Source: a virus. From it: a stretch of DNA of 22,613 bases. Numbering within the stretch: the first letter of the stretch is position 1; each line of letters opens with the position of its first letter. The DNA is taken from positions 1 to 22,613 of IMG/VR virus record IMGVR_UViG_3300021335_000099. One strand, given 5' to 3'. The position numbers and the translations under genes were made by a program. A model generated the notes under the pieces. The model was given only the letters and a program-made list of their open reading frames with translations. It had not been told where the DNA came from and did no database searches. Below, one piece after another: positions 5,019 to 12,156 of this stretch.

Positions 5019-5285
5019 ATGGAAAAGATATTGGAAACCAAAAGCATATATAACGGATATGTGTCACTTGTCAGCACTGGCAAGACCTTCAAAACTGTAG
5101 TTCATTGCAATGTTTTTAACGTTTCGATTGAGCGCAAGCACAGGCACTATGAGGCCGCGCTGAAAAGATTCGCAAAGTGGGAGAATTCAGATCCTCGCCC
5201 TATCATGGAGACGCAAGCTAAAAGAGAAGCCAAAAGGAATCAGCGTCGAGCCGAAAGAAAGCAAAGTCAAAAACAGGCCGCGTAA
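5019..5285 (+). CDS. Hypothetical small basic protein
   Basis: 88 residues. The N-terminal half looks beta-rich (SIYNGYVSLVSTGKTFKTVVHCNVFNVSIERK) and the C-terminal half is a highly charged helix (ETQAKREAKRNQRRAERKQSQ). No family is recognised. It is the first gene after promoter P1, with GGAG seven bases before the ATG. The basic tail could bind nucleic acid (inference). Translation looks certain from the promoter, RBS and following compact genes; the role is open. Confidence 0.7.
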   Translation: MEKILETKSIYNGYVSLVSTGKTFKTVVHCNVFNVSIERKHRHYEAALKRFAKWENSDPRPIMETQAKREAKRNQRRAERKQSQKQAA

Positions 5286-5303
5286 GCGGCCCAAGGCGGT
5301 CAG

Positions 5304-7803: not shown

Positions 7804-7960
7804 AACGCCCCCGTCGAGCATATGAGTTGCAGACGTGGGCAAAAACCAACGCCTTTAGCTTTTCATCAGACTCTTTTTTTTGCTCTAATTCCCACACTTG
7901 TTTCGCTGCTGCGTCCATCGCTTTCACCATATCTGACGCGACAGCCCTTGGCGATCTCAT
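7778..7960 (-). CDS. Hypothetical small helical protein (60 aa)
   Basis: Starts at ATG 7960, overlapping the NinG-like stop by ATGA, and ends inside the start of the phosphoesterase gene. It is almost wholly helical (VASDMVKAMDAAAKQVWELE, then DEKLKALVFAHVCNSYARRG). No known domain is recognised. Support comes from coupling on both sides and sensible composition. It may be a small partner of the neighbouring nuclease or phosphoesterase (inference). Confidence 0.65.
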   Translation of the reverse strand: MRSPRAVASDMVKAMDAAAKQVWELEQKKESDEKLKALVFAHVCNSYARRGRYGSKETTG

Positions 7961-8385
7961 CTGCGCTCACCCACTCGACGCTCATGTGCTTTTATCTGTT
8001 CTTCCCAGTCGGCAATCATGTCGCGGTAGTCCGCTGTATAGAACTTCACGGGGTCTTTCTTGGTCGCCAGCATTCGTTCAACTGCGTCTTTGCCATACCA
8101 GTCGATCATCCATATCGTGTATTGAGCCTCTGCGCTGCCATGCTTCATACCAAAGCCATTACAGCCCCGGCACTGGGCATGCACATTCTGCTCCTCTAGC
8201 GCCCACCTTGATGATGAGCCTTTGGGGATAAAGTGCCCACCGTCCATATTCTTGTAGTGGTCTAATCGGCCACAGGACACGCACTTGCAGTAGCCGTTGT
8301 CATCAGCCTCGCTGATTCTGGCAAGTTTCTGCAACGTCTTCAATGCCTTAGAGCGAAGTGTTGCCGACGTAGGTTTCTTCGCCAT
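7957..8385 (-). CDS. ninG: NinG/Rap-like HNH-type recombination endonuclease
   Basis: 142 residues. The signature is a zinc knuckle CKCVSCGRLDHYKNMDGGHFI followed by the HNH-like core SRWALEEQNVHAQCRGCNGF and KHGSAEAQYTIWMIDWYGKDA. This matches the lambda NinG (Rap, PF05766) family, which cuts branched DNA and stimulates phage recombination. The basic N-terminus (KKPTSATLRSKALKTLQ) fits DNA binding. It starts at ATG 8385 as TAATG with the upstream gene. The presence of an ERF annealing protein in the rightward operon supports a recombination role. Confidence 0.9.
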   Translation of the reverse strand: MAKKPTSATLRSKALKTLQKLARISEADDNGYCKCVSCGRLDHYKNMDGGHFIPKGSSSRWALEEQNVHAQCRGCNGFGMKHGSAEAQYTIWMIDWYGKDAVERMLATKKDPVKFYTADYRDMIADWEEQIKAHERRVGERR

Positions 8386-8702
8386 TATACTACTCTACGC
8401 AGGTTAGCCTGCTTTGTTCGTTCAGCATCAAACGCCAGTTGCCCAAGCATTATCTTCTTCTTGAGTGTCTCAGCCTTCAGGCTGGCTTGCTGGACTGTTC
8501 GATAGTGGTTGGCCCACTCTCCACTTGATCTTGTTTCTGTTTGAGCCTTAGCAGCGCTTGCCCCTGCATCCATGTGCGCCTTCTGGCTGCTAGCTTCAAA
8601 GCTCTTAAAATTGGTCTCTGCTTCAATTGCTTCCCGACTCGCCCCCTCCCACTCGTTTATACGTTGGCTCAACCTATCTAAGATTTGATCCATTCTATCC
8701 AT
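8385..8702 (-). CDS. Coiled-coil phage protein
   Basis: About 105 residues from ATG 8702, which has GAGGGAG six bases upstream (a GTG one codon earlier is possible). It is predicted entirely helical: MDQILDRLSQRINEWEGASR, then a central EAETNFKSFEASSQKAHMDA and a C-terminal QASLKAETLKKKIMLGQLAF. This resembles the widespread small phage coiled-coil proteins encoded near recombination genes whose function is unknown. It couples to the NinG-like gene by TAATG. Confidence 0.72.
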   Translation of the reverse strand: MDRMDQILDRLSQRINEWEGASREAIEAETNFKSFEASSQKAHMDAGASAAKAQTETRSSGEWANHYRTVQQASLKAETLKKKIMLGQLAFDAERTKQANLRRVV

Positions 8703-8761
8703 CACTCACTCCCTCTTTGTTTTAGACACAGATGACATTTAGTAGGGGTTTGGTGGCCCAT
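8702..8761 (-). CDS. Possible 19-residue leader/mini-gene with a CxxC motif
   Basis: ATG at 8761 to TGA at 8704-8702 encodes MGHQTPTKCHLCLKQRGSE. Its stop overlaps the ATG of the coiled-coil gene as TGATG, the same coupling used by proven neighbours. The CHLC pair suggests a tiny zinc knuckle or a regulatory leader peptide. The SD is weak and the length is short, so this may be chance. Confidence 0.28.
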   Translation of the reverse strand: MGHQTPTKCHLCLKQRGSE

Positions 8762-9134
8762 ACTTGATCTGTCTCTATCGTTAGGCTGTATTTCCACTCA
8801 ACCAATTTCTGCGCTGGCTCAGACGCTGCCCACCTCTCTGCCCATATATAAAACGGGGGAGAGGGTTTTTGCCACCTTTAACGAGTGTTCCATTTGGCGC
8901 TCCCTACTACAGCGCCCAGCTTCAAACAAATTGTCTCTTGGTCGTTCTGCTCAACGGGTCAACCACCCGTACCCTTCCGGGCCTCTGCCACCGAAGTGGA
9001 GCATCCTTTTGCTAAATTAACCCCCGCCTATCGACCACTCGGACGGGAACGAGCTAACAGGCAGGAAAGTGCCTTGGTCTGAGAAATGGGCCAGCCCCCA
9101 AAGCGTGGGGGAGGGGGTGTCTGGGGACTGACCG
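8762..9134. other. About 370 bp without a recognisable gene, rich in perfect hairpins (candidate structured RNA)
   Basis: Between the Cro-like gene and the coiled-coil gene I see no convincing protein. Instead there are exact inverted repeats: GGCGCT/AGCGCC (8896-8916), ACGGGT/ACCCGT (8954-8970), CCAC/GTGG (8988-8999), AGGCA/TGCCT (9059-9074) and CCCCCA/TGGGGG (9095-9111). TGCT (8948-8951) and AGCA (9000-9003) can close a multibranch loop around two of them. On the minus strand the 8988-8999 hairpin has a UUCG loop closed by C-G, an extra-stable tetraloop, which favours a minus-strand RNA lying in the leftward transcript after the Cro-like gene. No known RNA family is recognised. Confidence 0.5.
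8833..8870 (+). terminator. Possible intrinsic terminator on the plus strand
   Basis: CCTCTC (8833-8838) pairs with GAGAGG (8859-8864), an inner CCC pairs with GGG, and TTTTT follows at 8866-8870. On the plus strand this is terminator-like; on the minus strand there is no T-run. No plus-strand gene ends near here, so it would stop antisense or read-through transcription entering the hairpin-rich region. Confidence 0.33.
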
Positions 9135-9332
9135 CTAATCGTAGAAAACATCAGGTCGCAATTCTTCACGTCGAACCTCACCCCCTGTCAACTTCTCCAA
9201 TTTTACCACATGGATCGCAGGAACCCTGCTTTTCCATTTTTGAATGTGCTGACCAGTTACTCCACACTGTCGGGCGATCTCAGCCTTTGACCCGACAATC
9301 TCGACGACTTTTTTGAATGCTTCTGTTTCCAT
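9135..9332 (-). CDS. Cro/YdaS-like HTH regulator
   Basis: 65 residues from ATG 9332. The pattern FKKVVEIVGSKAEIARQCG-VTGQHIQKWKS is a Cro-type helix-turn-helix, and RVPAIHVVKLEKLTGGEV with ELRPD near the end is the hallmark of YdaS/Cro proteins of phages. It would bind operators as a dimer. The open frame extends upstream to 9428 but crosses the promoter, so the ATG at 9332 is chosen. A minus-strand promoter would begin transcription at or next to this ATG, implying a leaderless or near-leaderless message. It is divergent from the recombination operon and likely controls it. Confidence 0.85.
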   Translation of the reverse strand: METEAFKKVVEIVGSKAEIARQCGVTGQHIQKWKSRVPAIHVVKLEKLTGGEVRREELRPDVFYD

Positions 9333-11503: not shown

Positions 11504-11968
11504 ATGGACAAGAATGAATTTACAGCACTTTACGATCAGTGGTTCGCGCTGCACCCGTTTAAGAAGCGGGACTGGGTGGAACTAGGCAAGGTGCATTATC
11601 AAGCCTTTGGGAAAGAGAGCGTGGCGCTGATGACCGAAGCATTGGGTCAACTAACTGAGGAGCTTGACCGCTTCCCATTACCCAAAGACATAAGGTCAAA
11701 GCTTAACAAACTGTCTAGCAGTAAGACTGAGGGTGGTCAGACGAAAAGCAACGTAACGTCTGAGAGCGAGCAGATAGCCACTAGACTGCTGGAACACCGG
11801 CATGGCGTGCATTACAACGGCAAGGTCGTAAAACGCCCTGAGAACGTCCCTGCGTGGATTGAGCAGCTTGTTGAGAGGGTGGACAATGAACTAGGCGTTC
11901 AGTACCCGCTCACAGCGAAGCTGGGCACTCTTGGGTTTATGGTTGTGCAGACGGAGGGCAGGCGATGA
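11504..11968 (+). CDS. Hypothetical protein, possibly replication-related
   Basis: 154 residues from ATG 11504 (GGGGGA four bases upstream); the larger open frame from 11441 lacks an RBS and crosses the inverted repeat. The N-terminal part (FTALYDQWFALHPFKKRDWVELGKVHYQAF) and LTEELDRFPLPKDIRSKLNK suggest a small helical domain, followed by a polar linker and a second domain (ATRLLEHRHGVHYNGKVVKR to LGVQYPLTAKLGTLGFMVV). This position in early operons is often a replication initiator or helicase-loader partner, but I see no diagnostic motif. Confidence 0.7.
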   Translation: MDKNEFTALYDQWFALHPFKKRDWVELGKVHYQAFGKESVALMTEALGQLTEELDRFPLPKDIRSKLNKLSSSKTEGGQTKSNVTSESEQIATRLLEHRHGVHYNGKVVKRPENVPAWIEQLVERVDNELGVQYPLTAKLGTLGFMVVQTEGRR

Positions 11969-12156
11969 ATGATGCTGTCAAGAAATTTCTTGAAGAAGGC
12001 GGGAAGATCCAGCAGCTTGATTCTGGGATCAAGAGAGACTTGAATGTCTGCATGAACTGTAAGAACTTGTTTCCAAGTGCAGAAATGACCAAGGGGAGTC
12101 AGCGACGATGCAAGAAGTGCCATCAGAAACACACGAAGTTCAAGACAAGCCGGTAG
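11965..12156 (+). CDS. Small zinc-ribbon protein
   Basis: 63 residues. Two CxxC pairs, CMNCKNLF and CKKC, are separated by about 19 residues and form a clear zinc ribbon; the tail is basic (HQKHTKFKTSR). A helix (NDAVKKFLEEGGKIQQLD) precedes it. SD GGAGGG lies six bases before the ATG, which overlaps the previous gene by ATGA. It probably binds nucleic acid or an RNA polymerase component (inference). Confidence 0.75.
   Translation: MNDAVKKFLEEGGKIQQLDSGIKRDLNVCMNCKNLFPSAEMTKGSQRRCKKCHQKHTKFKTSR

Follow-up and report, generated by a model that had tools for sequence, protein, structure and literature searches.

The minus strand at positions 9003-8732 of an uncultivated marine phage genome encodes a large structured RNA, hereafter the main RNA, and the alignments of its relatives show that its two-domain fold with four pseudoknots is maintained by selection. 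It has a leader position, directly before the gene p106. From this comparative evidence it is probably a cis-acting leader RNA of the operon which comprises p106, ninG and the late genes. By the searches reported below it is a new family, of the general kind of structured phage leader RNA. The DNA analysed, called the window here, is the whole stretch of 22,613 nucleotides of the IMG/VR virus record IMGVR_UViG_3300021335_000099. This 22.6-kb record carries terminase and Erf genes; when terminases are compared, its nearest cultured relatives, at 51-54% identity, are Pelagibacter phages and DSL-LC06. The carriers of the RNA are a clade of uncultivated marine phages.

Significance of the finding

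To our knowledge, structured RNAs that steer phage operons come from a few model phages only (lambda nut and HK022 put). An RNA of about 270 nt with four pseudoknots and dozens of compensatory events, absent from Rfam, means that phage leaders hold unexplored folds. Should RNA polymerase be its target, the main RNA would be akin to put in function but far larger; should it instead respond to a ligand or a protein, the late genes would have a phage-borne switch at their entrance. A further element of the same region, element M, turns up in front of unrelated genes across many viral contigs, which makes its function accessible to comparative and reporter study.

Collection of relatives and alignments

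Related loci were collected by a NinG protein search, from which the best 80 of 184 IMG/VR contigs were taken, and in a second set of related loci, from which the best 80 of 84 were taken. Where both neighbours are visible, p106 is separated from the Cro-like gene by 333-437 nt, and this stretch is alignable. A profile of the conserved part, together with two pattern scans (79 and 83 stretches), provided the set of RNA sequences. The main alignment, A1, holds 67 distinct full-length IMG/VR sequences, and a hand-anchored alignment holds 68 sequences after the exclusion of 16 partial or chance matches. Covariation was tested with our own re-implementation of a phylogeny-aware test, for which the P1 and P2 columns were aligned by hand.

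The search by nhmmer over 549 loci confined the main RNA to the phage clade, besides two chance contigs; L163 and L164, two of the cultured terminase relatives, are among these loci. Cellular carriers were considered and rejected: eight genome contigs fit the domain-1 pattern, and these were treated as chance because nhmmer finds in them the pattern segment alone or nothing. The coordinates of all the features are collected in Table 1.

Table 1. Positions in the window of the main RNA, element M and the neighbouring features (stems as 5' strand/3' strand)
Feature	Position or sequence	Strand	Remarks
Cro/YdaS-like regulator gene	9135..9332	-	directly 5' of the RNA region; Pfam YdaS_toxin 4.8e-20, P22_Cro 9.9e-8
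Cro-terminator-like hairpin	9080..9133	-	14-bp stem 9133-9120/9102-9089, then degraded T tract; -23.3 kcal/mol for 54 nt
Element M	9015..9080	-	66-nt three-way junction with pseudoknot; between terminator and main RNA
Element M helices	P1 GACC/GGTC, P2 AGGCA/TGCCT, P4 CTCG/CGAG	-	pair counts
Element M pseudoknot	P4 loop CCCGTC with 3' strand GGCGGG (consensus GRCGGG)	-	co-variation in divergent copies
Main RNA core	8732..9003	-	272 nt, two domains, four pseudoknots; 67 distinct sequences aligned
Domain 1	8940..9003	-	co-variation, domain alignment
Domain 1 P1	9003-8999/8952-8948	-	encloses P2, P3 and P4
Domain 1 P2	8998-8996/8991-8989	-	
Domain 1 P3	near 8982-8971	-	variable
Domain 1 P4	8970-8965/8959-8954	-	
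Pseudoknot PK1	8964-8960/8944-8940	-	P4 loop with segment 3' of P1
Domain 2	8732..8939	-	held by H1
Domain 2 H1	8929-8925/8782-8778 and 8920-8917/8788-8785	-	
Domain 2 H2	8916-8912/8900-8896	-	
Pseudoknot PK2	8910-8902/8746-8739	-	H2 loop with CCYACTAA at the 3' end
Domain 2 H3	8887-8883/8799-8795	-	
Pseudoknot PK3	8876-8871/8757-8752	-	
Domain 2 H4	about 8864-8834	-	hairpin
Domain 2 H5	8826-8823/8814-8811	-	
Pseudoknot PK4	8818-8815/8804-8801	-	
p106	8385..8702	-	first gene 3' of the RNA
ninG	7957..8385	-	second gene of the p106 operon; Pfam NinG 1.8e-15

Hairpins of the single sequence

A sequence-only reading of the window had pointed to five perfect hairpins within 8896-9111. Four of them are present with a stem of at least 5 and a loop of 3-9 (8896-8916, 8954-8970, 9059-9074 and 9095-9111), while the fifth, C-UUCG-G, has a stem of only 4 bp (8999-8989). 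The cluster is rarer than chance, since dinucleotide shuffles average 1.16 perfect hairpins and reach four in 8 of 500 cases, and four perfect hairpins are held by two of the 208 segments of 216 nt tiled along the record. The hairpins are real, but the interval straddles three units: the hairpin of the Cro terminator, element M and the main RNA. Of the last it contains just the 5' 108 nt and misses over half, the RNA continuing to 8732. The cUUCGg hairpin described for the minus strand does exist, but its UUCG loop is not kept among the relatives, which have GAAA, TTTT, TATC or longer loops. The TGCT/AGCA pairing proposed to close a multibranch loop is real and corresponds to helix P1.

Folding of the single sequence gave z = +0.91 for the minus strand and z = -1.08 for the plus strand. 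Neither value is significant, and such folding was discarded as evidence; because this fold is unremarkable, relatives were needed to decide. The view that the region has no credible ORF agrees with the relatives, in which no frame is conserved: the minimum stop-free runs are 20-36 codons over all six frames in 57 relatives, and a protein-coding gene is ruled out by these short runs. No tRNA or tmRNA gene was found by ARAGORN.

Co-variation and strand of the main RNA

Over the 52 proposed pairs and 67 sequences, 99.2% of the cells are standard, against 30-40% when the partners are slid. Double-sided changes are present at 20 of the 52 pairs (308 cells), against at most 4 pairs and at most 20 cells with slid partners, and the cell counts of the real alignment were never attained in shuffled controls. 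By parsimony on the tree, 60 events were scored as double compensatory, 39 as single and 15 as breaking, whereas slid controls gave 0-2 double events. The phylogeny-aware test on 68 sequences found 20 pairs at E<0.05; ten are proposed pairs (in P1, P2, P4, PK1, H1, H2 and H5), and the other ten are cross-correlations of six P1/PK1 columns which change together in one clade (18 of the 68 sequences). Chance as the source of the structure is rejected by this test, by the pair counts and by the tree events.

P1 alternates between TGCTC/GAGCA and TGTCC/GGACA, P4 between CGGGT/ACCCG and either CCGGT/ACCGG or CGGTT/AACCG, and PK1 between G-C and A-U. PK3 has one double event only, and its 5' strand could alternatively pair with the H5-loop strand. 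H4 is poorly aligned in A1, yet it folds in all 34 distinct versions (the regular expression missed the one of L106), its inner stem alternating between CCC/GGG and CTAT/ATAG types. Many unpaired bases of the main RNA are invariant among the relatives.

At pairs which are Watson-Crick in some sequences, G.U was found in 127 cells and A.C in 5, which fixes the minus strand as the RNA. The covariance analysis by which the sequence-only reading had proposed to check the region, when run, gave abundant compensatory changes in the stems. The co-variation bears out what that reading had claimed, a new structured RNA of the phage, read from the minus strand and located in the leftward operon, with the Cro-like gene on one side and ninG on the other.

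The plus strand at 8832-8872 has H4 followed by GTTTTT, which makes a strong terminator-like site (-14.1 kcal/mol) and the sole plus-strand flag of the strict terminator scan. This site could be a stop for rightward antisense transcription.

Position of the main RNA and the terminators around it

The main RNA is present in all 63 distinct contigs which have p106 and at least 350 nt upstream of it, or, with duplicates, at 201 of 201 such loci. The distance from the end of the RNA to the start codon of p106 is 13-38 nt in every measurable relative and 29 nt in the window, where the ribosome site GAGGGAG lies between the RNA core and the p106 start. An unlinked ncRNA gene, which had been mentioned as one option for the region, is disfavoured because of this short distance, and since the main RNA stands directly before the next gene it probably controls the p106 operon. 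The spacer between the RNA and p106 (window 8703-8731, minus strand, and relatives) occurs in either of two versions that can replace each other, ATGTCTAAA..GAGGGAGAGAG and GTGGGAGAGAGAAA; this exchange points to recombination where the RNA ends.

The T tract of the Cro-terminator hairpin, degraded in the window, is intact in many relatives, and its T run ends at P1. Four examples of upstream GC hairpins with a T run were folded and gave -15 to -23 kcal/mol. L106 and L053 have an unrelated hairpin with a T run at the same place, and relatives of the L055 type have no clear terminator 5' of the RNA. The strict terminator scan, by which long loops are missed, flagged 17 of 44 loci upstream of the RNA, about half of these flags being a hairpin within cro or element M. 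The pattern of an intrinsic terminator (GC hairpin and T run) is present in the upstream hairpin of the relatives and absent from the minus strand within 9003-8732.

Strong terminators within the first 4-5.5 kb 3' of the RNA were found on the same strand in 23 of 44 relatives and on the opposite strand in 34 of 44. None of them is conserved, and the idea that antitermination serves to overcome such a conserved downstream site was dropped on this comparison. Inside the leftward operon of the window, the minus strand at 5274-5293 has a strong GC hairpin with a T run.

Proposed function of the main RNA

In the proposed mechanism, polymerases which read through the Cro terminator, or initiate close to it, would transcribe the main RNA as the 5' leader of the operon. 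The RNA would fold while emerging from the polymerase, and the folded RNA would then control the p106-ninG-late operon in cis. As to the way in which this control is read out, our analysis tentatively places antitermination as the likeliest, with an action on translation or mRNA stability nearly as likely. In antitermination the nascent folded RNA would attach to the polymerase during elongation, either by itself or together with a protein of phage or host, and the polymerase so bound would resist pausing and termination along the long leftward operon, as with put or nut.

Several clues bear on antitermination. The main RNA has the place of nutR and putR after a PR-like cro promoter, a terminator-like hairpin is present in the operon (5293-5274, minus strand), and element M, which shares the topology of domain 1, has a terminator-like hairpin downstream in some of its copies (counts below); a put- or nut-like action fits the place of the main RNA and the company of M. 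On the other side, the recurring terminator lies upstream, where a cis-acting nascent antiterminator cannot act, and this, with the lack of conserved downstream terminators, weighs against antitermination. Counted against it as well are the many closely related contigs among the M copies with such hairpins, the likeness of M and domain 1, which is of topology only, and the absence of a boxA-like site, none being found on the minus strand from 9332 to 8690 with one mismatch to the consensus allowed.

The window also encodes, at 11965-12156 on the plus strand, a small protein which, over its first 22 residues, is similar to the RNA-polymerase-binding domain of SutA (E 1.2e-5, below the Pfam cut-off). 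From this similarity, it is a possible candidate for a polymerase-binding partner. A wider idea, which we regard as rather unlikely, is that uncultivated marine phages possess a set of RNA antiterminators, working with or without proteins, that goes far beyond put; it would be represented by the four-pseudoknot RNA at the head of the late operon and by the small, mobile, often tandem element M, which stands before genes and in several cases immediately before a terminator hairpin.

A leader acting on translation or mRNA stability, riboswitch-like or as a protein-binding operator, is possible though somewhat doubtful; its fold or switching would set the access to the ribosome site of p106 or protect the 5' end of the late mRNA. 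The constant closeness of the p106 start speaks for it, although such closeness is expected in any compact phage genome. The long-range pseudoknots PK2 and PK3 close just 5' of the ribosome site, the many invariant unpaired bases are what a binding pocket would have, and the pyrimidine-rich strand of H4 could, by inspection, pair with GAGGGAG. Glutamine riboswitches occur in marine phages (PMC9004378), but p106, which has no Pfam or PHROG match, offers no function pointing to a ligand.

It is unlikely that the main RNA is a stand-alone trans-acting RNA, or a ribozyme which cuts the transcript, with p106 merely as the next gene. The size and the number of pseudoknots are like those of large ornate RNAs, and a terminator hairpin stands between cro and the RNA in many relatives, but an end at 13-38 nt before p106 hardly fits a 3' terminator and the main RNA was found in one context only, both by the pattern stretches (79 and 83) and by nhmmer over 549 loci. 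That the region works at the level of DNA, as a site of replication, packaging or recombination whose hairpins are incidental, is highly improbable, for although the region is mosaic, with M present or absent and P3 and the spacer variable, the excess of G.U over A.C points to selection on one strand, as RNA.

Element M

Element M is an insertion found in the window and in only some of its relatives. It is a second RNA element, absent from Rfam and recurring before unrelated genes, and probably counts as a separate finding. A pattern scan gave at least 120 viral stretches with it, and all the loci examined gave 69 distinct 55-mers in 152 loci. The covariance model R1 matches the copy of the window with 72.6 bits (E 8.7e-21), the window being among the R1 seeds, and found 147 copies in 100 sources, 99 of which were selected for carrying M. 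Tandem arrays hold up to four copies (L274, L295 and L331); further sites are L055:1969-2039 on the minus strand and the arrays in L314 and L266. The genes that M precedes are erf, in some of the window's relatives, a SNF2-like helicase (by sequence reading) and many small genes. Of 76 copies of M, 13 have a terminator-like hairpin at most 120 nt 3' of them; among control stretches the count is 28 of 441. Many closely related contigs are included in the count for M.

The search pattern fixed the letters of the pseudoknot, and the 5' strand of P1 was chosen by complementarity (9 sites without one were dropped), so only P4 and 28 divergent copies are independent evidence; the alignment A4 holds 39 sequences of 61. 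P4 varies between A-U, G-C and U-A. The 28 distinct copies outside the search pattern keep the pseudoknot in 27 cases by eye, and in several of them it is changed on both sides, as in CCCACC/GGTGGG (L325 and L311) and CCTGTC/GGCAGG (L306).

No Rfam match was found for element M, and one M copy searched to E<=10 gave one chance snoRNA match only. M is absent from all 398 genomes of the one bacterial phylum searched, and blastn against the GenBank phages gave no match apart from one non-motif match. Homology of M with domain 1 was considered and is unsupported: the two are alike in topology only, and R1 with filters off finds M and misses domain 1.

The leader of the SNF2-like helicase (L360-L383 and L435-L549; e.g. 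L437, L449 and L464) has an M-like fold, GACCTAGCCCTATCTGTGGACGAAGCAGGGC, and then a conserved hairpin, GTGGACACCCACTTCRYGC. By the T run that comes after this hairpin the leaders fall into two sets, the run being intact in the first and interrupted (TATTTCG) in the second. R1 gave 17 matches at E<=0.1 among the 80 helicase loci listed. Among the matches listed there are 64 distinct helicase-leader hairpins, 22 with an M-like regular-expression match upstream and 42 without. T runs in the former are T5 in 18 and T4 in 4; in the latter they are T5 in 5, T4 in 4 and T3 in 31, with none in 2. By eye, 2 of the 22 matches are false and many of the 42 hold an M-like fold which the expression misses. 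Because of these false and missed matches, and of the two apparently separate lineages, no conclusion is drawn on M and terminator strength.

Searches for known families

Against Rfam release 15, no match at the gathering score was found in the window or in ten related loci, and window positions 8690-9150 gave no match at E<=5. Among 50,697 GenBank phage records, ten matches of 20-33 nt were found (E 0.9-3), none of them in HK022, and these were judged to be chance. No match was found in plasmids. A literature search, of which subscription journals were mostly outside the coverage, found no description of the main RNA.

Comparison with known systems

The ornate RNAs GOLLD and ROOL are large and structured and some of them are in phages. 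The main RNA, on the other hand, has no match in Rfam, is about 270 nt long and is tied to one operon.

Flaviviral xrRNAs have a junction ring with a pseudoknot from a loop to the 3' flank, and element M and domain 1 share this arrangement. The hosts and the sequences differ, and among the papers listed by the literature search none was on xrRNA in phages. Glutamine riboswitches (glnA and Downstream-peptide) join a junction to a pseudoknot of a hairpin loop with the 3' flank. They resemble element M and domain 1 in topology and in being present in marine phages; the glnA and Downstream-peptide covariance models gave no match in the window region (E<=5), in the related loci or in an M copy (E<=10).

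The place of the main RNA, between the cro and ninG genes, is that of lambda nutR, compared with which the main RNA is a far larger structure. HK022 put acts in antitermination through the zinc-binding domain of the RNA polymerase beta' subunit. In HK022, some 270 nt separate putR from the start of PR (PMC9378689). The put RNA has about 70 nt and two stem-loops, and it acts alone on RNA polymerase. Like put, the main RNA would be a phage RNA that acts in cis close to where an early operon begins. It differs from put in its length of about 270 nt, its ten or more helices, its four pseudoknots and its place 3' of the Cro terminator.
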